64,000 nucleotides of DNA, from positions 102,499 through 166,498 of IMG/VR virus record IMGVR_UViG_3300036780_000209; one strand, written 5' to 3'. The notes below the pieces were generated by a model. It searched no databases. It had not been told where the DNA came from and saw nothing but the letters and a program-made list of their open reading frames with translations. Both the position numbers and the translations under genes were made by a program. Source of the DNA: a virus. Positions 32,399-51,581 of the stretch are shown piece by piece (within the stretch, counting starts at the first letter, position 1; the number at the start of each line of letters is the position of its first letter).

Positions 32399-32409
32399 CA
32401 GTACCACCT

Positions 32410-32436
32410 CGTCTCTGATTACAAGGTATCTTATCA
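32410..32436. promoter_or_regulatory. Divergent operator-like motif between rtcB and a plus-strand gene
   Basis: GATTACAAGGTATCTTATCA is the interrupted palindrome seen elsewhere. It sits 12-35 bases before rtcB and 33-55 before the GTG at 32469, so it may control both directions. No strong -35/-10 pair is visible. Confidence 0.45.
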
Positions 32437-32468
32437 AGCAACTCGTTATCTTCGAAGAAAGGATCACC

Positions 32469-32705
32469 GTGAAGAAGATCATCAAGGGCATCGGCTCACT
32501 CGGGCTCACCGCCGCGTCGGCCCTGCTCGCGGGTGCCTGCTACGAGCACGGACGGAAGATCGGCAAGGGGGAGGCCAAGTTCTCTCCCGAGGCACTCGGC
32601 TCCACCGCCCACGGCTTCATGACCAAGGTGGTCATGAAGGTCGTGGAGCAGCGGGCCAGGCTCGCAGCCGAGCAGGCCGCAGCCAAGGCCAAGTCCAGGG
32701 GCTGA
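32469..32705 (+). CDS. Small membrane-anchored protein
   Basis: A 78-residue protein from GTG 32469 with GAAAGGA upstream. The N-terminus is a signal/anchor (KKIIKGIGSLGLTAASALLA followed by GAC, a weak lipobox), then a basic amphipathic tail ending AKAKSRG. It faces away from rtcB and ends at a terminator. Confidence 0.6.
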   Translation: MKKIIKGIGSLGLTAASALLAGACYEHGRKIGKGEAKFSPEALGSTAHGFMTKVVMKVVEQRARLAAEQAAAKAKSRG

Positions 32706-38766: not shown

Positions 38767-38771
38767 CCGGG

Positions 38772-38843
38772 AGACCCCTAGCGGATTCGAACCGCTGTGA
38801 CTGACTTTGCAGGCCAGCACCTAAACCACTCGGCCAAGGGGCC
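38772..38843 (-). tRNA. tRNA-Cys (GCA)
   Basis: Cloverleaf with 7-bp acceptor (one G-U), T-loop TTCGAAT and anticodon loop CTGCAAA. Last tRNA of the array transcript. No CCA encoded. Confidence 0.85.
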
Positions 38844-38966
38844 GCAAAGGAGACCAGGCAGTGTAAGAGCCCCGTCTGAGGGGGATGGCTTACCTGATCT
38901 CCAGCGAGACGCCGGATGCACCTTATCCTCCGGAGCGACCAGGGTGTGAGGCTACTCATCTCGCCG

Positions 38967-39039
38967 TGAGCCTGGAGGGAATCGAACCCCCGGCAATCTC
39001 TTTAGGAAAGAGGCACTCTATCCCCTGAGTTACAGGCCC
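38967..39039 (-). tRNA. tRNA-Arg (CCT)
   Basis: Complete cloverleaf; anticodon loop TTCCTAA reads AGG, T-loop TTCGATT. Confidence 0.85.
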
Positions 39040-39164
39040 GTGAGCCGGTTGGGTAGGGACCGGCAGCCCCCTGGCCTCGCCGTGTTTAGATCACGCCACT
39101 GACCGGCAAGCCGGGGATGGCGATCGGAGAGAGTCCCTCAGGCCAGTGGAACCCTATCTCCCCG

Positions 39165-39237
39165 CGCTCTCAGAGGGACTCGAACCCCCGACCCGCAGCT
39201 TCGGAAGCTGCCGCTCTATCCGCTGAGCTATAAGAGC
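39165..39237 (-). tRNA. tRNA-Arg (CCG)
   Basis: Complete cloverleaf; anticodon stem GCAGC/GCTGC, loop TTCCGAA reads CGG. CAT directly precedes the 5' end. Confidence 0.9.
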
Positions 39238-39383
39238 ATGCTGTGCCGGCCTCACCCTCTAGCCGGCCCGGGGACCCTGCCCATGACCGCGTCCCTACTT
39301 TGCTCGGAGGGGCCGTTCCGGACCATAGCTACCCTCAGTGAACGAAGCACCGACTCTCATCGGTGCCCGGCCGGTTCACGCAG

Positions 39384-39457
39384 TGCTCTTAGCCGGATTC
39401 GAACCAGCCGCCTGCACCTTCGCAAGGTGCTGCTCTATCCTGCTGAGCTATAAGAGC
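39384..39457 (-). tRNA. tRNA-Arg (GCG)
   Basis: Cloverleaf with acceptor GCTCTTA/TAAGAGC (perfect); loop TTGCGAA reads CGC. Confidence 0.9.
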
Positions 39458-39526
39458 AAAGACCCGGGATTCGGAGAACCTTGAGGAGGCGTTTCTTCCT
39501 CCTGCGCGCCGCCGGGACAGCGCTGG

Positions 39527-39606
39527 TGCCAGGCGAGGGACTCGAACCCCCGTACCCGTAGGACGTGATTTACAGTCACGCGCGATTGCCGCTCTGCCAG
39601 CCTGGC
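39527..39606 (-). tRNA. tRNA-Tyr (GTA)
   Basis: Long-variable-arm tRNA; acceptor GCCAGGC/GCCTGGC perfect; loop CTGTAAA (GTA). One of few units with CCA encoded after the discriminator A. CAT precedes the 5' end. Confidence 0.85.
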
Positions 39607-39610
39607 ATGG

Positions 39611-39683
39611 GGTCCCCGGCGGGATTCGAACCCGCGAATACCAGGCTCACAACCTGGTCCCGAATGCCACCTGGTTCGGGGAC
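39611..39683 (-). tRNA. tRNA-His (GTG)
   Basis: Perfect acceptor GTCCCCG/CGGGGAC; anticodon loop TTGTGAG reads CAC; T-loop TTCGAAT. Confidence 0.9.
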
Positions 39684-39685
39684 AG

Positions 39686-39759
39686 TAGGCGATGCAGGGA
39701 TCGAACCTGCGGCCTCCGCTGTGTGAAAGCGGCGCTCTTCCGACTGAGACTAATCGCCC
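39686..39759 (-). tRNA. tRNA-Val (CAC)
   Basis: Cloverleaf with stem CCGCT/AGCGG; loop TTCACAC reads GTG. CAT precedes the 5' end. Confidence 0.85.
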
Positions 39760-39855
39760 ATGTGACACGAGCAGGAATTGTCTGCACATTCCACCTGCAT
39801 CAGCCTTAAGTCCGTGCAGGGACTTTCAGGTTGCGGATGCCGTGTCTCATCCTGG

Positions 39856-39927
39856 TACTCCCAGAGGGATTCGAACCCCCATTAACAGGTCCGTAACCTG
39901 TCGTGATATCCGTTTCACTATAGGAGC
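39856..39927 (-). tRNA. tRNA-Arg (ACG)
   Basis: Cloverleaf with stem ACAGG/CCTGT; loop TTACGGA reads CGT (and CGC/CGA if A34 is inosine). Acceptor has wobble pairs. CAT precedes the 5' end. Confidence 0.85.
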
Positions 39928-39985
39928 ATGCGCACCTGATGGCCGGGCGGTGCCCTCCCGATGCGGGGTCGGTCAAACCCTGCCG

Positions 39986-40059
39986 TGGACCTACCTGGGC
40001 TCGAACCAGGGACCTCTGCCGCGTCGAGGCAGCGCTCTTCCAATCTGAGCTACAAGTCC
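39986..40059 (-). tRNA. tRNA, probably Val (GAC), with C at position 33
   Basis: Well-formed arms, T-stem CCTGG/CCAGG. The 7-base loop is TCGACGC: anticodon GAC follows C33, not the near-universal U33. Isotype is therefore less sure. Confidence 0.65.
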
Positions 40060-40303
40060 AGTGGCCGGAGTCTTGGCGAATTCCCGCGCTCCTCGCGGAG
40101 GCGCTCTCCGGGTCAGTCCCGGAGGACTGCAGGGGCTACCCTGGGGAAATGGTCCAGCCTGTCCTGATGCCAGGGCACGTGCAGGGCGTCCCCCGCTGTA
40201 GAGGATCCAGGGGCACGGGTACTGTCCCCTGAAACCTCGTTAGGCAGTTTCACCTGCCACGGGAGGGTCAGCGGTGACTAGTACGCTGCTGCCTCCGGCC
40301 GAG

Positions 40304-40374
40304 CGGTCCCTACGAGACTTGAACTCGCGACCTCTGCCTTGACCAGAGGTCAGGCGGCTGCGCCTGGAGAGACC
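40304..40374 (-). tRNA. tRNA-like, anticodon CAA (Leu), short D-arm and short variable arm
   Basis: Acceptor GGTCTCT/AGGGACC pairs with wobble; T-loop TTCAAGT; loop GTCAAGG. The D-arm is only AGGC-loop-GCCT and the variable region is four bases, not the long arm expected of tRNA-Leu. Its 5' 25 bases overlap the end of the 40760-40350 gene. Confidence 0.55.
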
Positions 40375-40760
40375 TCGTACTGCTGAGCCCAGCGAACATG
40401 CTGAGCCTGATTGTTGTTGGTCGGCTCAACCCTAAGCCGGCCCTCTCGCTCACCTACATCCCCCACCGGCACCAAGTACACCTTGTCCAGGGCCGGACAG
40501 TAAACCCCAAACAGGTCAGCATCTCCTCGGTACCCCATGGAACTCTGATCGCGCCGTAGGCTATGCGGCCGGAACAGGACGCAGCCCTGCTGGTAGACCG
40601 CCGTTTTGCATTGCACCCGGACCAGGGTGCCGTCGCCGCCGTCATAGGCCAGGTCGTATCTGTGGCCACCGCCGAACGGGATCAGGACTCGCTTGCCGAG
40701 CCGCAACAAGGCCGCGAGCACGATCCCTTCAGTTTGACTACCTTTGTCCGTTGTGTTCAC
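40350..40760 (-). CDS. PD-(D/E)XK homing-endonuclease-like protein (I-Ssp6803I type)
   Basis: A 136-residue protein from GTG 40760. Pattern: helix GIVLAALLRLGKRVLIPFG, then YDLAYDGGDGTLVRVQCKTA (D-x(9-11)-V-Q-C-K, the PD-(D/E)XK core with Q-x-K), RGDADLFGVYCPALDKVYLV. This is the build of group-I-intron PD-(D/E)XK endonucleases such as I-Ssp6803I, which cuts a tRNA gene. Its C-terminus (SPGAAA, stop) is read from the first 25 bases of the downstream tRNA. It starts GTGAACACAA, like the ORF at 42178. Probably a free-standing homing enzyme that targets the tRNA array. Confidence 0.7.
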   Translation of the reverse strand: MNTTDKGSQTEGIVLAALLRLGKRVLIPFGGGHRYDLAYDGGDGTLVRVQCKTAVYQQGCVLFRPHSLRRDQSSMGYRGDADLFGVYCPALDKVYLVPVGDVGEREGRLRVEPTNNNQAQHVRWAQQYEVSPGAAA

Positions 40761-40784
40761 GAGACCTATGTTACATGCTGACAG

Positions 40785-40858
40785 CGGTCCTGACGGGATT
40801 TGAACCCGCGACCTCCACCTTGACAGGGTGGCGAGCACTCCAACTGCTCTACAAGACC
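40785..40858 (-). tRNA. tRNA-Asp (GTC)
   Basis: Cloverleaf with stem CCACC/GGTGG; loop CTGTCAA reads GAC; T-loop TTCAAAT. CAT precedes the 5' end. Confidence 0.9.
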
Positions 40859-40862
40859 ATGT

Positions 40863-40936
40863 GGTCCGACTAGGCAGGATTCTGGACTGCAGTTTCCTAA
40901 AACCTGCCGGGCACCCTCCGGTTAGGGCATCGGACC
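40863..40936 (-). pseudogene. tRNA-like remnant, possible Leu (TAG)
   Basis: GGTCCGA/TCGGACC forms a perfect 7-bp end stem, with a D-like arm CCCT..AGGG and a loop TTTAGGA (TAG). The T-arm is damaged (no TTCGA) and four extra bases precede the acceptor strand. Confidence 0.35.
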
Positions 40937-40982
40937 TGCCCAGGCCAAGCTAGCCGGTTTATCGCTTAGCGCTTGACCATCG

Positions 40983-41055
40983 CTCCCCTGTCAGGATTCG
41001 AACCTGAAACCCTCCGGTTAACAGCCGGACGCTCCGCCAGTTGAGCTACAAGGGA
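40983..41055 (-). tRNA. tRNA-Asn (GTT)
   Basis: Cloverleaf with stem TCCGG/CCGGA; loop CTGTTAA reads AAC; T-stem TCAGG/CCTGA. Confidence 0.9.
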
Positions 41056-41092
41056 TTAATCAGCCTCCCGGCTTATTAGCAGGGAGGCTTCG

Positions 41093-41166
41093 TAGCGGGA
41101 GTCGGATTCGAACCGACGTTCTGTGGGTTATGAGCCCACCGAGATACCGAGCTTCTCCATCCCGCG
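41093..41166 (-). tRNA. Initiator tRNA-fMet (CAT)
   Basis: Shows initiator hallmarks: C1 facing U72 (no 1:72 pair), three G-C pairs GGG/CCC at the base of the anticodon stem, loop CTCATAA, and an actinobacterial-type 5' half CGCGGGATGGAG. Rare in phage arrays. Confidence 0.85.
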
Positions 41167-41207
41167 TCGCCAACGCTAGCATCCCTGACGGGGAAATGCA
41201 AGCAAAG

Positions 41208-41279
41208 TAGTCCCAGAGGGAGTTGAGCCCTCTTTTCCGGGGTGAAAACCCGGCGTCCTAACCCGTAGACGATGGGACC
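41208..41279 (-). tRNA. tRNA-Glu (TTC)
   Basis: Cloverleaf with stem CCGGG/CCCGG; loop TTTTCAC reads GAA; T-loop CTCAACT is slightly atypical. Confidence 0.85.
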
Positions 41280-41338
41280 AGGGTGCCGGCTCAGCAGCGC
41301 GATCGTCTGCCCGGCTTCCCGGCAGCCTGAGCCGGTCG

Positions 41339-41412
41339 CAGTGCGTACGGGGCTCGAACCCGTCATCTCCGCCTTGAGAGGGCGGCGTCTTGTCCGTCTC
41401 GACCAACGCACC
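41339..41412 (-). tRNA. tRNA-Glu (CTC)
   Basis: Cloverleaf with stem CCGCC/GGCGG; loop CTCTCAA reads GAG; T-stem ACGGG/CCCGT. CAT precedes the 5' end. Confidence 0.85.
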
Positions 41413-41518
41413 ATGAGGTACGGCGAGCCGGCTTGCGGCCTGCCCGCTTTAGGATCCGGGCAGCTAAACCCGGCGGCTATTCAGAGCCATTCCTCTTAGG
41501 CCGCGTACCCGGCCCGTG

Positions 41519-41591
41519 CGCACCATGAAGGATTCGAACCTTCGCCCGTCTGCTTAGAAGGCAGCCGCGCTATCCGCTGCGCCAATGGTGC
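41519..41591 (-). tRNA. tRNA-Arg (TCT)
   Basis: Perfect acceptor GCACCAT/ATGGTGC; loop CTTCTAA reads AGA; one mismatch at the top of the anticodon stem. Confidence 0.85.
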
Positions 41592-41595
41592 TCAG

Positions 41596-41666
41596 TGCCC
41601 CGCCGAGGTATCGAACCCCGTTCCGCCGGGTAAAAGCCGGTTACATCACCTTAATGCTTGCAGGGC
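41596..41666 (-). tRNA. tRNA-Lys (TTT)
   Basis: Cloverleaf; loop CTTTTAC reads AAA; top pair of the anticodon stem is A-C. CAT precedes the 5' end. Confidence 0.8.
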
Positions 41667-41671
41667 ATGCG

Positions 41672-41745
41672 TAGACCCCCTGAGGATCGAACTCAGCTCA
41701 TACCGGGTATAAGCCGGCTCCCCGCAACCAGCGTGGCTAGGGTCC
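41672..41745 (-). tRNA. tRNA-Ile (TAT)
   Basis: Cloverleaf; loop CTTATAC gives anticodon TAT, reading AUA directly without a lysidine-modified CAU. AUA is very rare in GC-rich genomes. CAT precedes the 5' end. Confidence 0.8.
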
Positions 41746-41874
41746 ATGAAGAATGTCCTGGTGTGCTGCTACGCCAAAGGCCCTGGAGGCAACCACGAGC
41801 CGCACGCCTTCCGGGCATGCGGGACGGCCGTCCCAGCCCGCGTACTTCGGCCTTCCAGGTTAACCAGGTGGCCA

Positions 41875-41922
41875 CCTGGCCCACTCCTTAGAGGATGGCT
41901 GCTTCTAAGCCAACCTTCCAGG
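41875..41922 (-). ncRNA. Mimic of the 23S rRNA GTPase-associated centre (helices 42-44)
   Basis: The minus strand reads TTGGCTTAGAAGCAGCCATC (41913-41894), which equals, as I recall it, the conserved helix-43 hairpin of bacterial 23S rRNA (E. coli about 1058-1080, binding site of L11 and of thiostrepton). It is enclosed by CCTGG/CCAGG, standing for helix 42. A short hairpin CTC-TAAG-GAG replaces helix 44, with partial match (10 of 14) to ATTTAAAGAGTGCG. It lies between tRNA-Ile(TAT) and tRNA-Met in the array transcript. It may be a captured rRNA fragment or a decoy for L11, a translation factor, RelA or a thiopeptide. Confidence 0.7.
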
Positions 41923-41930
41923 ACATTCAG

Positions 41931-42002
41931 TAGCGAGAGGGAATTGCGACATCCCGACCTCCGCCTTATGAAAGCGGCGTTCTTCCTCTGAACTATCTCG
42001 CC
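41931..42002 (-). tRNA. tRNA-Met/Ile2 (CAT)
   Basis: Acceptor GGCGAGA/TCTCGCT; loop TTCATAA. The T-loop is GTCGCAA in place of TTCGANN. Elongator Met or lysidine-type Ile cannot be told apart here. CAT precedes the 5' end. Confidence 0.75.
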
Positions 42003-42178
42003 ATGTGGGCCGGCCGGCTGCGGAACATCCGGACGGGCGTGGGATGCCTGTCCAGCCAGCACATGAAGCACTGAGGCCATGCGCGGCCGGAGCGGAACAT
42101 CACTTCCTTGCTGATCTTGTCTTCCCGGGCGCGGTCGGTGCAGTCCCTGCACGCCTGCCAGGTACCCATTGTGTTCAC
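41993..42178 (-). CDS. Small two-CxxC zinc-type protein between tRNAs
   Basis: A 61-residue frame from GTG 42178 (or ATG 42169). It has ACRDC and, 26 residues later, CFMCW, a likely zinc site, and a basic C-terminus. It begins two bases after tRNA-Ile(GAT) and its last codons ATG-GCG-AGA-TAG are the first bases of tRNA-Met, with the stop formed by U8-A9. The start GTGAACACAA is shared with the homing-endonuclease gene. Confidence 0.5.
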   Translation of the reverse strand: MNTMGTWQACRDCTDRAREDKISKEVMFRSGRAWPQCFMCWLDRHPTPVRMFRSRPAHMAR

Positions 42179-42179
42179 G

Positions 42180-42253
42180 TAGACCGCCGAGGAGTTGAAC
42201 CTCGCCGCTAACTGCGTATCAGGCAGTCCCCTTCACCGGTTGGGTAGCGGTCC
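42180..42253 (-). tRNA. tRNA-Ile (GAT)
   Basis: Cloverleaf with stem ACTGC/GCAGT; loop CTGATAC reads AUC; T-loop TTCAACT. Its 5' half doubles as the end of the 42404-42219 ORF. Confidence 0.85.
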
Positions 42254-42404
42254 TTGAGTCTCGCCGCTTCTTCATCCGAGCGGCGTGACCAGCCCTGCAG
42301 ATATCACATTTACAACCATGCTTACGATACATAGCAACACTGCCATGCTTAAACCCATTAATCCAGCTAGGATTATCTCCCGATTCCCTGGTGCTGGTGC
42401 CCAT
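42219..42404 (-). CDS. Small HNH-associated-type CxC..C protein
   Basis: A 61-residue frame from ATG 42404 with GFKHGSVAMYRKHGCKCDIC and a basic helix RAGHAARMKKRRD. The H-G-x(5)-Y-x-x-x-G-C-x-C-x-x-C-x-x-A pattern recurs in small actinophage proteins near HNH enzymes. G+C is low here. The end (RTATQPVKGTA) is coded by the 5' half of tRNA-Ile(GAT). Confidence 0.5.
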   Translation of the reverse strand: MGTSTRESGDNPSWINGFKHGSVAMYRKHGCKCDICRAGHAARMKKRRDSRTATQPVKGTA

Positions 42405-42409
42405 GACTG

Positions 42410-42607
42410 ATGCTCGCGCATCAGGGTACGTACTATGCCATGTTCGCAATCATCGCAGTGGTCCTGTTCGCCATCGCCACGCTCATCGCGTTCACGTCAC
42501 TCAGCGGGATCTCGGTCCTCGGGCTGATCGCGGCGGGGCTGCTGTGCATTGCCCTGCACCTGGCCATCGGCGGGACCGTCACGATCCCGTGGCATCGCCA
42601 GCCGTAA
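42410..42607 (+). CDS. Small two-helix membrane protein on the opposite strand
   Basis: A 65-residue frame (ATG 42410 or 42440) with two hydrophobic segments (MFAIIAVVLFAIATLIAF; VLGLIAAGLLCIALHLAIGG). It is the only plus-strand gene candidate inside the tRNA array and diverges from the 42404 gene. No strong Shine-Dalgarno is seen. Confidence 0.45.
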   Translation: MLAHQGTYYAMFAIIAVVLFAIATLIAFTSLSGISVLGLIAAGLLCIALHLAIGGTVTIPWHRQP

Positions 42608-42608
42608 G

Positions 42609-42694
42609 CGGATCGCGGAGGTCCCGACCCCCAGCCCCGTGAAGGACCCTTCCGCTTTCAAGGCGGAGGCCGCCGCCTGACGGCTTCACGATCC
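42609..42694 (-). tRNA. tRNA-Ser (TGA)
   Basis: Long-variable-arm tRNA; stem TCCGC/GCGGA; loop CTTGAAA reads TCA. T-loop is GTCGGGA, not TTCGANN. Confidence 0.75.
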
Positions 42695-42780
42695 AGGTGG
42701 CGCATGCCAGGACTCCCGCCGGTCCTGGCTCGGCGGTGCCTGGCTCCAGGACTTGTGGTTCCCGGTGCGCCGCCGGGAAG

Positions 42781-42867
42781 CGGATGACGGAGTACTCGAA
42801 ACCCACCCCCTTGCAGGAGCCAGCCGCTTTCGAGGCGGAGCCGGTGCGCCTGCCCGGTTCGTCATCC
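42781..42867 (-). tRNA. tRNA-Ser (CGA)
   Basis: Long variable arm; perfect acceptor GGATGAC/GTCATCC; loop CTCGAAA reads TCG; T-loop TTCGAGT. Confidence 0.8.
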
Positions 42868-42947
42868 AGGGTGATCCCGTTAGGCAGGTCTGCGCCCTGC
42901 AGCCCGTGCGCACGGACAGCCCGGGTACAGGATCAAGCCGGGCTTTG

Positions 42948-43033
42948 CGGATGACGGAGAGCCCGAGTCCCAGCCCCTTCACGGGACCCGCTCCGTTTCC
43001 AGCGGAGGCCGGCGCCTTGCCGGTTCATCATCC
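42948..43033 (-). tRNA. tRNA-Ser (GGA)
   Basis: Long variable arm; stem CTCCG/CGGAG; loop CTGGAAA reads TCC; T-loop CTCGGGC is atypical. CAT precedes the 5' end. Confidence 0.75.
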
Positions 43034-43205
43034 ATGTTCCCGGAGTATGGCATTACCCGATTCTGCCAGGGACTTGCGCTGGTCTAGTGACCTCGCCATG
43101 CGATGCGGTCGGGACACGTGTCGCACACGCAAGGTGCCAGCCAGGCCGCCAGGAGCGGCCTGCACGGCCTGGGCTCTCCTGAGTCCGCCGTAGCCATGGC
43201 AGCGG

Positions 43206-43250
43206 GGAGAGCGACGGAATCGAACCGTCCCGGGCATGCCCGGCCTAGCG
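43206..43250 (-). pseudogene. tRNA 3'-half remnant
   Basis: A perfect T-arm GACGG-TTCGATT-CCGTC followed by acceptor strand GCTCTCC, without a normal 5' half upstream. A matching GGAGAGC lies 26 bases downstream (43179-43173), but the D-like region after it is not convincing. Confidence 0.45.
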
Positions 43251-43335
43251 GAGAGCGGACTACTCGAAAGCCACCCCCTTGCGGGAGCGATCCGGCTAGC
43301 AACCGGTCCCAGCGCGCCTGTCTGGTTCACCCTCC
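43249..43335 (-). tRNA. tRNA-Ser (GCT)
   Basis: Long variable arm; loop TTGCTAG reads AGC; T-loop TTCGAGT. Acceptor contains wobble pairs. CAT precedes the 5' end. Confidence 0.75.
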
Positions 43336-43450
43336 ATGCTGACCCGTTCGCCCTCCGCGACGGCTGGGCAGCCGTCCGAGGTACTGGGCAGGGCTTGGTC
43401 GCGACACCGTTCGCCCTGGAGGCGGCCACGGCTCCTCAGCCGCCTCTTCG

Positions 43451-43524
43451 TACTCTCGGAGGGATTCGAACCCTCAACATCCACGCCCTGAACGTGGCGA
43501 CTCTACCAATTGGCCTACGAGAGC
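43451..43524 (-). tRNA. tRNA, anticodon CAG (Leu), class I body
   Basis: Perfect acceptor GCTCTCG/CGAGAGT-type pairing; stem CCACG/CGTGG; loop TTCAGGG, as in normal tRNA-Leu(CAG). The variable region is only five bases (class I), which is abnormal for bacterial leucine tRNA. CAT precedes the 5' end. Confidence 0.75.
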
Positions 43525-43638
43525 ATGGTCCCGGCACTTCTGCCCGTCCAGGCGCTACCTGGACTTCGCCGCTGCCGGGCGCTGGCGGGCTTTGGCGTGA
43601 TCACGGGTCCCTGGCCAGGGCGCACCGCGCTCACCCAG

Positions 43639-43711
43639 AGCGGCTGACGGGAATCGAACCCGCGACCTCCACCTTGGCAAGGTGGCGCTCTGCCTGCTGA
43701 GCTACAACCAC
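43639..43711 (-). tRNA. tRNA-Gly (GCC)
   Basis: Cloverleaf with stem CCACC/GGTGG; loop TTGCCAA reads GGC. CAT precedes the 5' end. Confidence 0.85.
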
Positions 43712-43770
43712 ATGCAGGGCTTGCGCCCCGTTAAAGCCGGCCCTGCGTCCGGCACTGAGCAAATACTGCG

Positions 43771-43843
43771 AGGGGACGACGGGGGTCGAACCCGCGACAT
43801 CGTGCTTGGGAAGCACGCACTCTGCCATCTGAGTTACGTCCGC
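43771..43843 (-). tRNA. tRNA-Gly (CCC)
   Basis: Cloverleaf with stem CGTGC/GCACG; loop TTCCCAA reads GGG; one acceptor mismatch at 2:71. CAT precedes the 5' end. Confidence 0.8.
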
Positions 43844-43853
43844 ATGTTCAGGA

Positions 43854-43976
43854 TCAGCGGGTGCAGTTAACGCAGCACCCGCTGCCGTGCTGGCTGCAAT
43901 GCAGGAGATCCATTCCGATGCAGTATCCGCAACGACATCCGCAGGTTCCGGCCTGACCGCAGTTACTGGCTTCCAT
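43854..43976 (-). CDS. Cysteine-rich 40-residue protein inside the tRNA array
   Basis: ATG 43976 has a near-perfect AAAGGAG Shine-Dalgarno seven bases upstream. The product has nine cysteines in 40 residues, with C-G-C-R-C-G-Y-C in the middle and C-C-V-N-C near the end, so a metal-binding (zinc or metallothionein-like) miniprotein is likely. It fills the gap between tRNA-Thr(GGT) and tRNA-Gly(CCC) exactly. It is too short for usual gene finders. Confidence 0.65.
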   Translation of the reverse strand: MEASNCGQAGTCGCRCGYCIGMDLLHCSQHGSGCCVNCTR

Positions 43977-43999
43977 GCTGATCTCCTTTACTCATAGCG

Positions 44000-44072
44000 A
44001 GCCTGCTGCGGGATTTGAACCCGCGCCCTCTTCCTTACCAAGGAAGCGCTCTGCCGCTGGAGCTAAGCAGGC
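44000..44072 (-). tRNA. tRNA-Thr (GGT)
   Basis: Perfect acceptor GCCTGCT/AGCAGGC; stem CTTCC/GGAAG; loop TTGGTAA reads ACC. CAT precedes the 5' end. Confidence 0.9.
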
Positions 44073-44191
44073 ATGATGCTGGGCCTTGGCAGGTCCCTTT
44101 CTTCCCCTCAGGGGCCGCCTGCGGAAATAGCGCTCCTCGCCCGGCTTCAGAGCGCTTCCGGTGACGGCAGGGAATCCTGCCAGAATTTATG

Positions 44192-44262
44192 CTGACCCGC
44201 CTGGACTCGAACCAGGACTACCGGGGCCAAAACCCGGCGGACTGCCATTGCCCTACGAGTCA
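44192..44262 (-). tRNA. tRNA-Gln (TTG)
   Basis: Cloverleaf with stem CCGGG/CCCGG; loop TTTTGGC reads CAA; T-stem CCTGG/CCAGG. CAT precedes the 5' end with A-T-G on the plus strand. Confidence 0.85.
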
Positions 44263-44271
44263 ATGTATTAC

Positions 44272-44380
44272 CATCGGGTGCCGGAATCGAACCGGCTTCT
44301 CTGCTTTCCGGCAGTATCTCCACCAGGAATACGAACCCTCCGGTCATAGGGAAGCGTGCTTACCGGCTCACTTACACAAC
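44272..44380 (-). pseudogene. Degenerate tRNA region
   Basis: A clean T-arm (GCCGG-TTCGATT-CCGGC) and acceptor strand ACCCGAT are present, with a hairpin CTGC-CGGAAA-GCAG (6-base loop, GAA or GGA) and two possible D-arms (GTAT..ATAC; GTGA..GCAC). No arrangement gives a full cloverleaf. Confidence 0.4.
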
Positions 44381-44443
44381 GGGACCTTGATCCCGGACAG
44401 GTTGCCGACGGTGCCCCGTTTAAGCCTGCCACCTCTTCCCACG

Positions 44444-44516
44444 AGCCCGCTACAGGGATCGAACCTGCGGCCTGCGCTTTACAAGAGCGCCGCTCTTCCA
44501 ACTGAGCTAAGCGGGC
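44444..44516 (-). tRNA. tRNA-Thr (TGT)
   Basis: Perfect acceptor GCCCGCT/AGCGGGC; stem GCGCT/AGCGC; loop CTTGTAA reads ACA. CAT precedes the 5' end. Confidence 0.9.
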
Positions 44517-44580
44517 ATGGTTGCCGGGGGCGGCAGCCATTAACGGAAAACGTGAGCCAGCGCCATCTCCGGCAAGCTCC

Positions 44581-44648
44581 GGGCGGCGGGAAGCCTCGAA
44601 CCTTCCCCGGGAGTCCGACCACGGGTGCCGTGGCTGCGCGAACCGCCC
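44581..44648 (-). pseudogene. tRNA-like element without D-arm
   Basis: Acceptor strands GGGCGGT/GCCGCCC pair and a T-like arm with TTCGAGG is present, but there is no D-arm and the central hairpin has a short loop. Probably a decayed tRNA. Confidence 0.4.
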
Positions 44649-44653
44649 TTCCG

Positions 44654-44727
44654 TATCCTCGGCGGGACTCGAACCCGCACTGCCGACGCCCTCAACGTCG
44701 TGCCTCCTGCCATTGGGCTACGAGGAC
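44654..44727 (-). tRNA. tRNA, anticodon GAG (Leu), class I body
   Basis: Perfect acceptor; stem CGACG/CGTCG; loop TTGAGGG as in tRNA-Leu(GAG). Variable region of five bases only, which is abnormal for Leu. CAT precedes the 5' end. Confidence 0.75.
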
Positions 44728-44791
44728 ATGATGCGCGAGGTCGCAGGTCTGCGACCCTAAGACGTTCAAGGTCGCACGGATGCCACCTTAG

Positions 44792-44864
44792 AGCCCGAGC
44801 GCGGTCTCGAACCGCGTGCCTGCGCATTACGAGTGCGCCGCTCTCCCAGGTGAGCTACACGGGC
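44792..44864 (-). tRNA. tRNA-Thr (CGT)
   Basis: Cloverleaf with stem GCGCA/TGCGC; loop CTCGTAA reads ACG; one acceptor mismatch. CAT precedes the 5' end. Confidence 0.85.
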
Positions 44865-45243
44865 ATGATCCTGCTCAAGCGTGCGGACGGGCTTTCGCCT
44901 CCGCTGATATATCCCTACCATCACGGGCCGCTAGCAGCCCCGGGAACGGCTCCGGGCCAGGAAGCCGGTACCTGAGCAGGACGACTGATCCTGATGCCTC
45001 ATCCGAACGCCGCGCCGTTCCGGAGTTCCGCCGGTCCCTGGCCAGGTGAAGCGGCTGTTCCTGCGGTCATGGGGCTTATCGGCCTGCCTCTTAGAGTGAG
45101 ATATCCGGAGGTCCTGGCCTCGGCCAGGTTTAAATGCCTGACTGTACCTCAGCTCAACCGGGTAATCCCGCAAGGCCTCAGCTTATCGTCCCTCAGGACT
45201 CCCGCTTTCCGGCACGGCGAACGGAAGAAGCATCAGGCATGAG
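44865..45243. other. Spacer of 379 bases without an assigned gene
   Basis: I find no protein frame with a Shine-Dalgarno and no TTCGA T-arm. The minus strand has several hairpins and one region (about 45080-45180) with a D-like arm TACC..GGTA and an AT-rich loop, possibly an old tRNA. Confidence 0.4.
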
Positions 45244-45319
45244 CTGCCCACCCTGGGATCGAACCAGGAAAGTCTCCCGGGTCAGAGCCGGGCGGGTCTG
45301 CCAATTCCCCCAGTGGGCA
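45244..45319 (-). tRNA. tRNA-Gln (CTG)
   Basis: Perfect acceptor TGCCCAC/GTGGGCA; stem CCCGG/CCGGG; loop CTCTGAC reads CAG. Confidence 0.85.
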
Positions 45320-45333
45320 TTGTTATTACTGCG

Positions 45334-45408
45334 TGCGCGAAGAGGGAGTCGAACCCTCACACGCCTCATTTTGAGTGAGGCAGCTCTGCCAGTTGGACTT
45401 ACTCGCGC
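45334..45408 (-). tRNA. tRNA, anticodon CAA (Leu), class I body
   Basis: Acceptor GCGCGAG/TTCGCGC with one wobble; stem CCTCA/TGAGG; loop CTCAAAA. Variable region only five bases. Second CAA unit of the window and the better formed one. Confidence 0.75.
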
Positions 45409-45465
45409 AAGGCTGGCTCCCGCTGCCACGGAAGCCAGTTACTACGGAACCGCCAGGTAAACGCG

Positions 45466-45538
45466 TGCGCCGTGAGGGACTCGAACCCCCGGCCCGCTGA
45501 TTAAGAGTCAGCAACTCTACCCACTGAGTTAACGGCGC
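45466..45538 (-). tRNA. tRNA-Lys (CTT)
   Basis: Perfect acceptor GCGCCGT/ACGGCGC; stem GCTGA/TCAGC; loop CTCTTAA reads AAG. Confidence 0.9.
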
Positions 45539-45620
45539 AAGATCAGGAATCTCCCTGGCGATGAGGAGCCTACTAACATGGCCGCCAGGCACCTGTTTCG
45601 ACCCCGGAAACTCCTGATAG

Positions 45621-45691
45621 AGCGGGTAGGGGGAATCGGACCCCCGTCACGTGCTTGGAAGGCACGGTCTCTGCCACTGAGTTATACCCGC
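45621..45691 (-). tRNA. tRNA-Gly (TCC)
   Basis: Perfect acceptor GCGGGTA/TACCCGC; stem CGTGC/GCACG; loop CTTCCAA reads GGA; T-loop TCCGATT. Confidence 0.85.
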
Positions 45692-45702
45692 ATTGACTAC
45701 TC

Positions 45703-45772
45703 GCGACACAACGGGACTCGAACCCGTACCTGGGGATTGTGTCCCCCGTGCTGCCGATTACACCATGCGTCT
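45703..45772 (-). pseudogene. tRNA-like unit with shortened anticodon arm
   Basis: Good D-arm (GTGT..GCAC), T-arm (ACGGG-TTCGAGT-CCCGT) and 6 of 7 acceptor pairs, but the anticodon arm GGGGA-CACAA-TCCCC has a 5-base loop and no U33. Anticodon cannot be assigned. Confidence 0.5.
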
Positions 45773-45825
45773 CAGCCGGGGAGCGACCCTGACCGCAGCT
45801 AAGGGAAGGATCCTTTCCCTTCGCG

Positions 45826-45896
45826 TGTCCCCTGACGGATTCGAACCGCCGTATCCTGGGCTTCAACCAGGCGCTCTTCCCCTGAGCTAAAGAGAC
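45826..45896 (-). tRNA. tRNA-Phe (GAA)
   Basis: Cloverleaf with stem CCTGG/CCAGG; loop TTGAAGC reads TTC; T-loop TTCGAAT; acceptor with wobble pairs. Confidence 0.85.
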
Positions 45897-46030
45897 GTGG
45901 ATTCGGGCCGGCCCCAGGTTCCACCCCTCTTTCTGAGAGACGGATCCCGGGCTTCGCGAAATGCAGCGGCGGCAGCCTGGCTAGGGCCGTCGCTTCTGAC
46001 CGCTCGGGGGAGCCATCCCACCAGCCCACG

Positions 46031-46102
46031 TCGGGAGGCGGGGACTCGGACCCCGTCTACCTGCTCCCAAAGCAGGCGCGCTCACCCTTACGCGACATCC
46101 CG
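46031..46102 (-). tRNA. tRNA-Pro (TGG)
   Basis: Stem CCTGC/GCAGG; loop TTTGGGA reads CCA; T-stem CGGGG/CCCCG; one acceptor mismatch. Confidence 0.85.
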
Positions 46103-46182
46103 GTGAAAATGAAGACAGCGGCCTGGCAGCCAGGTATCCCCGGTCCAGCAGGCAGTGAGGACTCCCATCTCAGCGCCGTCCG

Positions 46183-46256
46183 TCGGGCTGGAGGGATTCG
46201 AACCCCCGGCCTCCTGACCCCCAGTCAGGCGCTCTGCCAAGCTGAGCCACAACCCG
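46183..46256 (-). tRNA. tRNA-Pro (GGG)
   Basis: Acceptor CGGGTTG/CAGCCCG; stem CCTGA/TCAGG; loop CTGGGGG reads CCC. Closely related to the next tRNA-Pro. Confidence 0.9.
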
Positions 46257-46326
46257 ATTAAGAGGCCAGCACGGACTTTCACCGCCGCATACAGCGGGGC
46301 TTGTCTCATCCCCTTTGTGACCTCAG

Positions 46327-46401
46327 TCGGGCTGGAGGGATTCGAACCCCCGGCCTCCGCGTCCCGAACGCGGCGCGCTAACCAAGCTGCGCTACAACCC
46401 G
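46327..46401 (-). tRNA. tRNA-Pro (CGG)
   Basis: Same acceptor and T-arm as the GGG unit, so probably a duplicate; stem CCGCG/CGCGG; loop TTCGGGA reads CCG. Confidence 0.9.
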
Positions 46402-46448
46402 ATTGCGGGGCTTCGCTCGCCACTGGCGTATCCGTAGGGCTTTCACCC

Positions 46449-46485
46449 GGGGAGCAGGATTCGAACCTGCGTACCAGCCCCTCGT
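46449..46485 (-). pseudogene. tRNA 3'-half remnant
   Basis: A perfect T-arm GCAGG-TTCGAAT-CCTGC and acceptor strand TCCCCGG directly follow tRNA-Ala(TGC), with no partner 5' half found nearby. Confidence 0.5.
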
Positions 46486-46557
46486 GGACCACGGGGGATT
46501 CGAACCCCCCACCTCCCGGGTGCAGACCGGGTGCTCTGCCAACTGAGCTAGCAGCCC
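46485..46557 (-). tRNA. tRNA-Ala (TGC)
   Basis: Stem CCCGG/CCGGG; loop TCTGCAC reads GCA; T-stem GGGGG/CCCCC; acceptor with wobble pairs. CAT precedes the 5' end. Confidence 0.85.
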
Positions 46558-46727
46558 ATGCGGCAACCGCGATCTTTGTCTTGATCCGCTGCCTTGTGTG
46601 CTTAGGACGGCGACTCCTCATACAAAGAGAGACACACGAACGACCGTCACAACGCTGGTGACGCTGCTCTGCTGGCTACCATGCCAGTCAGGACCAGGAG
46701 CATTTTCAGTTTCGGCCGAAACTCCCG

Positions 46728-46800
46728 TGGACCTACCCGGAATCGAACCGGGGACCTCTCCCGTGCGAGGGGAGCGCGCTACCTGCTGCGCCATAAGCCC
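46728..46800 (-). tRNA. tRNA-Ala (CGC)
   Basis: Stem CTCCC/GGGAG; loop CTCGCAC reads GCG; T-stem CCCGG/CCGGG. Confidence 0.85.
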
Positions 46801-46923
46801 GTGGAGCCCCGAGTGATTCCGGCCAGGGCGCTTGGAGTCGCGCCTGGTCATGCCGGTTACCATTGTCAGCCGACTGCTAGCAGGACGGCTTCCGGATGCC
46901 GTGCCACGGCTCGGGACATTACG

Positions 46924-47011
46924 AGGGGCGCTCTGCCGCTGAGCTACCAGCCACCTAGGGCCGGAGCCCATCACCAGTGGCCGGGCAGGATTCGAACCCG
47001 CGACCTCCCCC
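46924..47011 (-). tRNA. Circularly permuted tRNA-like unit C
   Basis: On the minus strand the 3' half comes first: GGGGG (47011-47007), variable AGGTC, T-arm GCGGG-TTCGAAT-CCTGC, acceptor strand CCGGCCA. After about 24 bases follows a 5' half: TGGCTGG, TA, D-arm GCTCAGCGGCAGAGC, G, CCCCT (46928-46924). Acceptor strands pair 7 of 7 (one wobble), and CCCCT pairs with GGGGG (one wobble). In normal order the upstream 5' half GCCGGGA does not pair with CCGGCCA. Anticodon cannot be read safely. Confidence 0.6.
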
Positions 47012-47020
47012 CTGCTTGCG

Positions 47021-47093
47021 GAGGGGGCTCTGCGACTTGAGCTATCCCGGCATGGATGGGGCCGGGACCAGGCCTTGCACCTGGATCTCCCTC
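47021..47093 (-). tRNA. Circularly permuted tRNA-like unit D
   Basis: Directly after tRNA-Ala(GGC) the minus strand reads GAGGG, AGAT, T-arm CCAGG-TGCAAGG-CCTGG, acceptor TCCCGGC, then C and CCA. After the bases TCCAT follows GCCGGGA, TA, D-arm GCTCAAGTCGCAGAGC, C, CCCTC. Acceptor (7 of 7) and anticodon stem (5 of 5) pair perfectly. The T-loop deviates from TTCRANY. It interlocks with unit C: 5' half of D is followed at once by the 3' half of C. Confidence 0.6.
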
Positions 47094-47097
47094 CTCG

Positions 47098-47170
47098 TGG
47101 AGCGACGGGGACTCGAACCCCGGACCTCTTGCGTGCCACGCAAGCGCTCTACCTGCTGAGCTATAGCCCC
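47098..47170 (-). tRNA. tRNA-Ala (GGC)
   Basis: Stem CTTGC/GCAAG; loop GTGGCAC reads GCC; T-stem CGGGG/CCCCG; one acceptor mismatch. CAT precedes the 5' end. Confidence 0.85.
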
Positions 47171-47176
47171 ATGGAT

Positions 47177-47255
47177 CTTCCTGCCAGGGCCGCCCTTATC
47201 CCTGGCAAAACCCCGGCCGGAGCCGAGCAGAGCCCGGGCAGGACCCTGGCAGGAA
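47177..47255 (-). other. Long hairpin in the array leader
   Basis: CTTCCTGCCAGGG (47177-47189) and CCCTGGCAGGAAG (47243-47255) are perfect 13-base complements enclosing a GC-rich hairpin. It could be an RNase III-type processing stem. Confidence 0.6.
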
Positions 47256-47400
47256 GTAATTCCCGAACGGTTTGTTTCATGATCAGGCGAGGCTCACACC
47301 AAGACGACGGCCGGAGATCTCCTCCGGCACCATGCCCGCCCGGGAAGTTACTGCCGGCGACCGCGTGAGCCCAGGTTGGCAGCCTGGCGCGCTCGCCGTA

Positions 47401-47422
47401 CTTCTCGTTTCCGCTGTGGAGT
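47401..47422 (-). repeat. 5' copy of the inverted repeat that brackets the tRNA array
   Basis: CTTCTCGTTTCCGCTGTGGA + GT on the plus strand, pairing with 38745-38766 (21 of 22). In the array transcript it precedes all tRNAs except Trp. Confidence 0.85.
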
Positions 47423-47442
47423 TCTCAAGAAACGATCACATT
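47415..47442 (-). promoter_or_regulatory. rRNA-operon-like leader motif
   Basis: The minus strand reads GATCGTTTCTTGAGAACTCC followed by ACAGCGGA. From memory, actinobacterial rrn leader and spacer regions carry GTTTCTTGAGAACTNCACAG or TTGTTTGAGAACTCAA, an antitermination/processing region. The match overlaps the 22-base inverted repeat, the place of the pre-rRNA processing stem. Confidence 0.55.
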
Positions 47443-47469
47443 ACCCGGACTAGGTCCGGTGGTGATCCG

Positions 47470-47540
47470 CAGGCCCGGAGGGACTCGAACCCCCATTACT
47501 GGTTTTGGAGACCAGCGCTCTGCCGTTGAGCTACGTGCCT
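47470..47540 (-). tRNA. tRNA-Trp (CCA)
   Basis: Stem CTGGT/ACCAG; loop CTCCAAA reads TGG; T-stem GAGGG/CCCCC. First intact tRNA of the array transcript; lies upstream of the rrn-like leader. Confidence 0.85.
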
Positions 47541-50073: not shown

Positions 50074-50862
50074 ATGCCGACTATCGGCCAGCTCCTGGCC
50101 GTCCGTGACGGTCACAGGCGCGACTTCGAGAAGATCATCAACTACCTCGACCAGAAGGGGCTGTGCAAGCACCACGAGTGGGCCAGCGGCTTCCACACCA
50201 CGCACCAGCCCTTCGCGGAGGATGCCGAGGGCATCCAGCATGACAAGCAGCCCGACCAGGGCAAGACGGTCCAGACGACCGTGGAGCAGGAGCTGGGCCT
50301 GGTACGCCCTGCCTTCGAGCGGTACCTGGACACCGAGCTGACCATCGACGCGGCCAACCAGGGGGCGAGGGGGGACGTTGTCGTGAACGGCGTCGCCCTG
50401 GCCGAGGACATCCCGGTCGTCACGCTCCTGTGGTGGGAAGGCCGGATCGCCGAGCTGATCGGCGTCTTCGGGAAGCTCCCGGTCCTGGAGCCCGACCAGC
50501 ACTGGACCTTTGACTCGGCCCGGGACATGCACGTGTCGGACCCGGTGCTGACCAAAACCACCCGGCGCACGAACGTGATCAAGGTCGCCATCGCGCCGAC
50601 CGAGCACCAGCCCGGCCAGTTCGCGCAGTGGCAGGATGACGTGCCGAACGGGATGAAGACCACCGTCCAGCTCTCCGGCAAGATGACCGCCGAGGATCAC
50701 CGGGCGCTGATCGCCCGGCTGCGCGTCCTCCAGGACGCGGTCAAGCTGGGCCGCGAGGAGGGCAACCGGGTTGACGCGAGCCGCCGCCGGGCAGGCCGTG
50801 CCCTGGCGGCCTTCGTCTTCGACGGCGAGCTTCCTACCGGGAAGAGCGCCAAGGTAAGCTAA
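50074..50862 (+). CDS. Conserved-type phage protein of unknown function
   Basis: A 262-residue protein with a good GAAGGAG Shine-Dalgarno. Alpha/beta pattern with KHHEWASGFHTTHQPFAEDA near the N-terminus and a beta-rich centre (DIPVVTLLWWEGRIAELIGV). Similar proteins occur in large actinophages as far as I recall, none with a known role. It is the longest plus-strand gene of the window and is transcribed toward the permuted tRNA units. Confidence 0.7.
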   Translation: MPTIGQLLAVRDGHRRDFEKIINYLDQKGLCKHHEWASGFHTTHQPFAEDAEGIQHDKQPDQGKTVQTTVEQELGLVRPAFERYLDTELTIDAANQGARGDVVVNGVALAEDIPVVTLLWWEGRIAELIGVFGKLPVLEPDQHWTFDSARDMHVSDPVLTKTTRRTNVIKVAIAPTEHQPGQFAQWQDDVPNGMKTTVQLSGKMTAEDHRALIARLRVLQDAVKLGREEGNRVDASRRRAGRALAAFVFDGELPTGKSAKVS

Positions 50863-50889
50863 AGGCGCTCTGCACGGAACCACTGAGCT

Positions 50890-50922
50890 GAGGCCCCGAT
50901 CCGGTTGACCGGACGGGGCCTC
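50890..50922 (+). terminator. Hairpin after the 50074-50862 gene
   Basis: A 9-base stem GAGGCCCCG / CGGGGCCTC with a 15-base loop. It overlaps the -35 and spacer of the next promoter, so the ending of one transcript and the start of the next are interleaved. Confidence 0.5.
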
Positions 50923-50934
50923 ATCCATTACAGT
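50905..50934 (+). promoter_or_regulatory. Promoter reading into the permuted tRNA units
   Basis: TTGACC (50905-50910), 18-base spacer, TACAGT (50929-50934), the same architecture as the other promoters but without the palindrome. Start would be near 50941, ahead of the first 3' half. Confidence 0.6.
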
Positions 50935-50983
50935 CTTCCTTGGCAACAAGCTCAAGTTCAAGCTCAAGCTGATCGCCAGCGAA

Positions 50984-51056
50984 GCCAGCAGTCGCAGGTT
51001 CGAATCCTGCCCCCTGCACCCGTGCAGGGGTACCTCAGCCCGGATAGAGGACTGGT
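50984..51056 (+). tRNA. Circularly permuted tRNA-like unit A
   Basis: Order on the plus strand: GCCAG (anticodon stem 3' strand), variable CAGTC, T-arm GCAGG-TTCGAAT-CCTGC, acceptor CCCCTGC, A, then five bases CCCGT, then acceptor GCAGGGG, TA, D-arm CCTCAGCCCGGATAGAGG, A, CTGGT (anticodon stem 5' strand). Acceptor pairs 7 of 7; anticodon stem pairs 5 of 5 with one wobble. TCAAGCTCAAGCT occurs on both sides of the unit. The anticodon would form only after joining the outer ends, so it cannot be read. Confidence 0.65.
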
Positions 51057-51128
51057 CGCAGCGTCAAGCTCAAGCTCGTGCCGAAGCTCAGACCAGCCAC
51101 CGGTACCCGATCGAGACCGACGGGAAAC

Positions 51129-51202
51129 GGGCAAACTGTGGGGGTTCGATTCCTCCCGGGGCGGCCACGACGCCCCGTAGCTCAACGGCAGAGCATGTGC
51201 CC
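51129..51202 (+). tRNA. Circularly permuted tRNA-like unit B with encoded CCA
   Basis: Order: GGGCA, AACTGT, T-arm GGGGG-TTCGATT-CCTCC, acceptor CGGGGCG, G, CCA, then CGA, then acceptor CGCCCCG, TA, D-arm GCTCAACGGCAGAGC, ATG, TGCCC. Acceptor pairs 7 of 7 and TGCCC/GGGCA 5 of 5. The CCA after the discriminator base fits a true 3' end. The 5' half continues CTCAGAG, so U33 and a following CAG are possible anticodon bases. Confidence 0.65.
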
Positions 51203-51286
51203 CTCAGAGATGAACCGCACGGTTAAAAGCTGCAGGTGCCGTTATGTGGAATTGTCAGCAGACAGTAAATCTGCCATACATAAACA

Positions 51287-51316
51287 GGAGGGGCCGGCAG
51301 GCTAGCCGGCCCCTCC
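51287..51316 (-). terminator. Strong hairpin between convergent units
   Basis: A perfect 12-base stem GGAGGGGCCGGC / GCCGGCCCCTCC with a 6-base loop. On the minus strand it is followed by TGTTTATGT. It can end the 51581-51375 gene and the plus-strand RNA. Confidence 0.65.
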
Positions 51317-51343
51317 GCCACGTTCCGTATACGGAACGTGGCG
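51316..51343. repeat. 28-base perfect palindrome (copy 1)
   Basis: A perfect palindrome whose centre is GTTCCGTATACGGAAC (51322-51337). The same 18-base core recurs 11 bases later. Likely a binding site for a dimeric protein. Confidence 0.7.
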
Positions 51344-51347
51344 AGAT

Positions 51348-51369
51348 TGCGTTCCGTATACGGAACGCA
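51348..51369. repeat. 22-base perfect palindrome (copy 2)
   Basis: Shares the core CGTTCCGTATACGGAACG with copy 1 but has different flanks (TG..CA), so selection acts on the core. It lies six bases downstream of the 51375 stop. Confidence 0.7.
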
Positions 51370-51374
51370 GCCGG

Positions 51375-51581
51375 CTACTGGGTGGCCAGCGCCCCGCTGA
51401 TCAGGCGGTGCGCCTCGTGCAGGCCCTTGCGGTCGAAGGTGACCCGGGACTCGCTCTTGTAAATGTCCCGGCCCTGCTCATCGGTAAGCACGAACGTGTT
51501 CGTGAGGGTCCAGAACCGGCCGCTGAACTCCAGCTCGATGTCATTCCGTGAAGTGTCAGGCATCTTCATTCCCTGCGCCAT
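51375..51581 (-). CDS. Small protein of unknown function
   Basis: A 68-residue protein, beta-rich (DIELEFSGRFWTLTNTFVLT) with a helical end. Last gene of the long small-gene operon 54926-51375. Confidence 0.55.
   Translation of the reverse strand: MAQGMKMPDTSRNDIELEFSGRFWTLTNTFVLTDEQGRDIYKSESRVTFDRKGLHEAHRLISGALATQ

Follow-up and report, generated by a model that had tools for sequence, protein, structure and literature searches.

The two tRNA-like units that lie directly behind tRNA-Ala(GGC) in the tRNA array of a soil phage, unit D (47021-47093, minus strand) and unit C (46924-47011, minus strand), are best explained as a tandem pair of YrlA-type tRNA-mimic modules rather than as decoding tRNAs that are rejoined from their halves, a reading to which we assign a probability of about 0.75. 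The window analysed here, 64,000 nucleotides in length, forms the end of a 166,498-base IMG/VR record (G000) and holds 41 tRNAs detected by ARAGORN, all of them in a minus-strand array at 38770-47540 whose direction units D and C share. A preliminary description of this DNA had proposed that the halves of the two units are interlocked in the minus-strand order 3' half D, 5' half D, 3' half C, 5' half C, and the letters confirm both this order and the helices that had been claimed for each unit.

In unit D, the anticodon-side stem is formed by AC3 GAGGG (47093-47089) and AC5 CCCTC (47025-47021), paired at 5/5 positions, and the acceptor by TCCCGGC (47067-47061) and GCCGGGA (47051-47045), paired at 7/7; the T arm spans 47084-47068, the D arm 47042-47027, and the linker between the acceptor strands (47060-47052) starts with N73-CCA, while the T loop, TGCAAGG, is unlike the usual TTCRANN. 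The anticodon-side stem of unit C, GGGGG (47011-47007) with CCCCT (46928-46924), contains four Watson-Crick pairs and one G-U pair, its acceptor, CCGGCCA (46984-46978) with TGGCTGG (46953-46947), pairs 7/7 with one G-U, and its T arm (47001-46985) and D arm (46944-46930) flank the acceptor strands and a 24-nt linker (46977-46954) containing a GGGC-TCCG-GCCC hairpin. The anticodon-side stems of the two units are separated by the 9-nt spacer CGCAAGCAG (47012-47020, minus strand), and the 3' end of tRNA-Ala(GGC) (47097-47170, minus strand) lies just 2-3 nt upstream of unit D, too close to leave space for a basal stem on that side, and no such stem is visible for the pair. Inspection by eye found no T at position 33 in the letters flanking D or C, where 9 nt are available in the window.

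ARAGORN reads the same region as a tRNA-???(gcaa) with a 4-nt anticodon (46977-47052, minus strand), which is a misreading of the 5' half of D with the 3' half of C. As had been proposed, the acceptor strands of that ordinary arrangement do not pair (1/7 in register), and the other crossed combination pairs at 2/7. A site-blind scanner for a T arm, acceptor, D arm and anticodon-side stem in permuted order returned the D/C pair plus one more unit, at 51131-51200 on the plus strand. Other features of the array were recorded alongside: a PD-(D/E)XK endonuclease gene (PF11645; 40350-40838, minus strand) within it, for which tblastn found a counterpart in the array of the relative L136; a tRNA with a CAT anticodon (41931-42002, minus strand) missed by ARAGORN and found by Rfam; and, by eye, Ser-like tRNAs with long variable arms (~42600-43330, minus strand) that ARAGORN also missed.

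The presence of exactly two units at each of two permuted loci had been taken to argue against chance, and the second locus does contain two units (50984-51056 and 51131-51200, plus strand). In a null set drawn from the tRNAs of eight arrays, in which the 3' acceptor strand of one tRNA was set against the 5' strand of another, 98 of 8176 combinations (1.2%) paired 7/7, as did 9 of the 247 (3.6%) that involved adjacent tRNAs; from these rates, two 7/7 acceptors together would be expected at ~1e-4 to 1e-3, with the other helices not counted. The joint event is rare yet possible from the letters alone, and it is conservation that decides. Chance pairing was rejected on this null together with conservation, and the non-chance claim is borne out in that relatives keep the modules, their acceptor, T and D helices covary, and the permuted acceptors are favoured over the crossed ones.

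Folding of the region with and without permutation, which had been suggested as a check, bore out one part of the proposed structure and not the other. In the ensemble, both permuted acceptor helices formed with pair probabilities of 0.86-1.0 and the ordinary acceptor with a probability of ~0, but the anticodon-side stems were not formed as drawn, and the structure with all permuted helices forced (-84.5 kcal/mol) lay ~6 kcal/mol above the optimum of -90.7 kcal/mol; the ordinary 5'D-3'C fold reached -85.2 kcal/mol. Partners can be swapped among the GC-rich stems and between the two identical GCTC/GAGC D-stems. For the window pair considered by itself this swapping is a real weakness, and a greater one for unit D, the T loop of which is unusual too.

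Related genomes were gathered through the major head protein (80 related loci), from which 30 records together with G000 made up a set of 31. Eight records have colinear tRNA arrays, and modules free of ARAGORN overlap were found in seven of nine arrays (the window, L132, L133, L134, L136, L141 and, weakly, L139); among the matches checked, none was present in the L135 array or the partial L137 array. The site is not the same throughout: three arrays (the window, L141 and L139) have it behind Ala(GGC), three others (L132, L133 and L134) behind Pro, and L136 behind Gln, with a second site after Leu in L133, and the clusters begin 0-3 nt past the upstream tRNA at all eight array sites (1-3 nt behind tRNA-Ala(GGC) in L141 and L139). 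The helices of paired modules, which are 9 nt apart in the window, are separated by 2, 3 and 2 nt in L132, L133 and L134, respectively, so that no anticodon loop is possible in these three. In L133 the stems are GGCC/GGCC and GGGG/CCCC, which makes a swap of partners impossible, and the minimum-energy fold consists of exactly two permuted modules; the best fold of L132 is not permuted, and its acceptors pair 5/7 in register. The acceptors of other modules are capped by tetraloops, UUCG in L142, L144 and L146 and GAAA in L141. A third permuted module with an acceptor loop of ~66 nt precedes the interlocked pair in L134 (8378-8513; record G009).

A pattern scan of the viral collection for similarly tight pairs gave at least 80 loci, and most of the matches listed were tRNAs whose anticodon arms are short or unusual; among them, convincing tandem modules were seen in L182 and L165 alone, with mixed cases in L174, L177 and L218. 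The L182 (5131-5281) and L165 (611-749) modules are abutting permuted tandems in two other virus contigs.

Comparison of homologues, also suggested earlier as a check, showed the acceptor, T and D helices covarying in the permuted order. In alignment set A4, 97.5% of cells were paired, with double changes at 15 of 16 pairs, against 40-51% in slid controls, and in the earlier set A2 98.2% were paired against 32-47%, percentages that are upper bounds because the tools that picked the rows reward pairing and because A4 includes rows overlapping tRNAs. Set A4 consists of the 23 rows of the covariance model R2, built from modules found in cultured phages and in three contigs, two of them from other viruses and one bacterial, its training excluding the window and the array modules of the relatives; a tandem ordinary tRNA pair (L287 3401-3532) and two rows overlapping an annotated tRNA-Arg (L287 1311-1381 and L288 1217-1286) were kept. 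The three top-scoring R2 matches in the 64-kb window were 51130-51200 (58.7 bits), unit C (58.4 bits) and 50984-51056 (57.7 bits), while unit D ranked sixth at 41.7 bits, within the range of tandem ordinary tRNA pairs. The other model, R1, gave unit D 60.4 bits with unit D's own row in its training set. Tandem ordinary tRNAs reach up to 57 bits (L136 2361-2486), and an ARAGORN-overlap filter was therefore needed, as covariance-model scores alone cannot separate them from permuted modules.

The Rfam family YrlA (RF02553) was the top non-tRNA family for unit C (32.7 bits, E 1.6e-5) and likewise for the two modules of the second locus, and matched unit D at 16.6 bits. The searches were run permissively; the YrlA gathering score of 69 bits was reached nowhere in the Rfam search of the 31 records including G000, and at E<=1 the family also matched 12 of 14 ordinary control genomes, so that weak YrlA matches alone prove little. 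The basal pairs of unit C are mismatched in the YrlA alignment.

The second pair lies on the plus strand and comprises a YrlA-like module at 50984-51056, with its acceptor capped by CCCG (Rfam YrlA 33.1 bits over 50966-51074), and another at 51131-51200, with N73-CCA in its loop (30.5 bits over 51120-51221). Immediately downstream are two adjoining perfect palindromes (GTTCCGTATACGGAAC; 51310-51372, plus strand). Beside the pair is a gene for a DUF7873 protein (PF25283; 50074-50862, plus strand; Pfam 1.2e-51), and in L137, L138, L140, L149 and L150 tandem modules likewise have a DUF7873 gene ~145-155 nt away. Among cultured phages, 73 records encode DUF7873, and modules were found just downstream in 10 of the 11 loci examined (L272-L282, from Gordonia, Rhodococcus, Vibrio, Arthrobacter, cyanobacterial, Klebsiella and Rhizobium phages), in mostly unannotated stretches; the Microcoleus phage locus (L278) has DUF7873 without a permuted module by either the scanner or the model. 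Modules also occur beside DUF7873 in the viral loci L289, L291 (which resembles L140) and L297, and in a bacterial contig from Kineosporia (L298), the neighbourhood being shared by unrelated phages. In Klebsiella phage FBKp24 (L280) a feature annotated as tRNA-Sup-TTA (2518-2597) overlaps the 3' half of a permuted module at 2560-2654.

Among the DUF7873-linked modules, 13 of 28 have N73-CCA behind the acceptor; the Ro-linked and array modules have it in 1 of 16 and 1 of 13 cases, respectively, in row sets picked by the authors from which rows without a detected T arm were dropped (4 DUF7873-linked, 1 Ro-linked and 0 array), and CCA is encoded in 2 of 29 ordinary tRNAs of the actinophage DUF7873 loci. 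DUF7873, of which no mention was found in the literature searched, is a candidate protein partner of the permuted modules, as suggested by gene neighbourhood; its predicted structure (mean pLDDT 58.9) was too poor for use.

Genes for Ro60/TROVE proteins occur in 6 of the 31 records, G000 not among the six, and neither Pfam TROVE nor a four-sequence profile detected Ro60 in G000. Permuted modules, usually two in tandem, adjoin the Ro60 gene in five of these six (G013, G015, G016, G017 and G023), and in G028 the sole match near the gene scored 23.9 bits. An annotation as Ro-like RNA binding protein or RNA-binding protein was matched in 72 records of cultured phages, and modules lay near the gene in all six loci examined. 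Several acceptors in the Ro60-bearing relatives have a UUCG cap, and at the Ro-linked loci L144 and L146 flanking helices of 8 bp were seen by eye, as expected for Y RNA.

An RtcB RNA ligase is encoded in the window (30257-32509, minus strand), far from the modules, with an intein-like insert of ~300 aa placed after the first ~50 residues; among NCBIfam models, one for RtcB with an intein matches it best. Self-cleaving ribozymes combined with RtcB are a natural design for making circles, and permissive Rfam searches of L025, L055 and the window regions 50850-51400 and 46850-47180 matched no self-cleaving ribozyme family. RtcB as the key enzyme was also considered, and the case was weakened by its presence in 2 of the 31 records (G000 and G009) while modules are found in many more.

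Circularly permuted tRNA genes are known from red algae and Thermofilum; their transcript is cut in the region of the anticodon loop and rejoined while the linker is opened at the acceptor. If D and C were genes of this kind, as the preliminary description implied, RtcB would join the halves and RNase P and 3' processing would open the linker to give a decoding tRNA, and the acceptors paired 7/7 in permuted order, the RtcB gene of the phage and the N73-CCA at the start of the linkers of unit D and the 51131 module are what such genes would lead one to expect. We nevertheless consider this very improbable, and it is the rejoined junction, not the topology, that lacks support: the gaps in L132-L134 are too short for a 7-nt anticodon loop, acceptors in relatives are capped by tetraloops, YrlA matches accompany the units and sister modules adjoin Ro60 genes. 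Furthermore, position 33 T was not seen by eye beside D or C, RtcB is confined to two records, and the 41 ARAGORN tRNAs are present already. The permuted topology itself is supported for both units, being conserved, covarying, and paired 7/7 within units against 1/7 and 2/7 across them. A Y RNA-type mimic, the preferred reading, needs no rejoining.

The ARAGORN call could also be taken at face value, as one degraded ordinary tRNA (5' half D with 3' half C) between two orphan half-tRNA remnants; it scores 25.8 bits against the Rfam tRNA model, below the cut-off of 29, its GGGGG and CCCTC strands pair too, and its fold energy is near that of the fully permuted structure. This would leave unexplained that the outer halves pair 7/7 with their own neighbours, and the acceptor of the ordinary form, with a pair probability of ~0, reaches 6 bp solely by borrowing a T-stem base; L132, L133 and L134 keep the permuted pairs, and the L133 stems are unswappable, so that we regard a degraded tRNA as highly unlikely. 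Two-piece tmRNA, with its opened acceptor loop and free CCA end, provides the model for a further alternative, in which RNase P and 3' processing would open the acceptor loop of a permuted RNA to leave a chargeable CCA end with the anticodon side unjoined. The N73-CCA in unit D and its frequency in the DUF7873-linked modules relative to ordinary tRNAs favour such an RNA, but the two-piece reading misfits the array class in general because CCA is found in a single array module and the acceptors of several relatives are tetraloop-capped, and for D and C it appears unlikely.

Taken together, unit C and the second pair are very probably tRNA mimics rather than tRNAs, and unit D is probably one as well. 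Each module consists of a T arm, a hairpin-closed acceptor, a D arm and a short stem in place of the anticodon stem, and would fold into a tRNA-like L, as its fold and conservation suggest. On this reading units D and C lack an anticodon, and no basal stem for Ro binding is visible in them; as the pair consists of the tRNA-like part twice over, we infer a bare tRNA mimic. Such a pair may be co-transcribed with the tRNA array and released by the end processing of its tRNA neighbours, after which tRNA-recognising proteins could bind it as they bind YrlA, for which TruB, Dus enzymes and PNPase are the known cases. In infected cells the modules might, by analogy, act on such proteins as decoys or tethers, a role that is possible for D/C but at odds rather worse than even. 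The pair at 50984-51200 would then represent a protein-linked version beside DUF7873. Tentatively, and at not quite even odds, three phage layouts can be proposed: modules with Ro60; modules with DUF7873, often with CCA in the loop, which hints at two-piece chargeable RNAs; and bare array tandems placed behind tRNA genes, to which units D and C would belong, acting as a free dimeric decoy made together with the phage tRNAs.

If correct, this reading would account for permuted tRNA-like elements in phage tRNA arrays that escape tRNA-finding programs or are mislabelled by them, would make Y RNA-type tRNA mimics widespread in large phages with or without Ro60, and would offer DUF7873 as a concrete second partner. 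It also raises the testable idea that phages bringing dozens of tRNAs bring mimics as well in which the anticodon, the place where host anticodon nucleases would cut, is absent. The same cassettes occur in cultured Gordonia, Arthrobacter and Streptomyces phages, for example Gordonia phage Phendrix and Arthrobacter phage Mimi with the DUF7873 layout and Streptomyces phage Satis with the Ro layout, and make these proposals accessible to experiment.

The closest known counterpart is YrlA (RF02553; Salmonella structure 6CU1), with which the modules share a permuted tRNA-like domain, a hairpin-closed acceptor and a T arm followed by a D arm; the array pair differs from it in having no visible basal Ro-binding stem, in consisting of two abutting modules among tRNA genes, in scoring below the gathering score and in lying in a genome with no detectable Ro60. 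According to the portions of the sources available, the Y RNA structure superposes on tRNA through circular permutation (PMC11472068), and in YrlA Rsr/Ro60 is held by the basal stem, the tRNA-like domain being the part that binds PNPase and that DusA and TruB modify (PMC8394870); YrlA has also been suggested as a possible competitive inhibitor of anticodon nuclease (PMC7790460). The Ro60 and YrlA cassettes of sister phages, and RtcB in G000 and G009, recall the Rsr/Ro60-Y RNA-PNPase particle (RYPER) and the rsr-yrlBA-rtcBA RNA repair operon, whose mechanism is treated in the same two partial sources (PMC8394870, PMC7790460), whereas in G000 RtcB is far from the modules, no Ro60 was found and DUF7873 stands beside tandem modules instead. 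Circularly permuted tRNA genes of Cyanidioschyzon, prasinophytes and Thermofilum (PMC3978253, available in part) likewise place the 3' half before the 5' half, but the present modules form tight pairs without an anticodon loop, have capped acceptors and revealed no bulge-helix-bulge on reading.

Y RNAs in phages are already known. The partial texts at hand state that they were found bioinformatically in mycobacteriophages (PMC12282133, citing Chen 2014) and proposed near an Rsr-like gene of Listeria phage CKA15 (PMC12282133), that several phages have YrlA (PMC7765460), and that jumbo phages encode TROVE proteins, whose partner in cells is tRNA-like (PMC7824862). The available parts of PMC12282133 and PMC7765460 contain neither bare tandem array modules nor a DUF7873 link, and the literature on permuted tRNA, YrlA or Ro60 and phage, seen in part and with subscription papers mostly outside its scope, yielded no description of either. 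Against this background, what looks new is the occurrence in tRNA arrays of bare module pairs that lack a Ro-binding stem, together with the tandem modules beside DUF7873.
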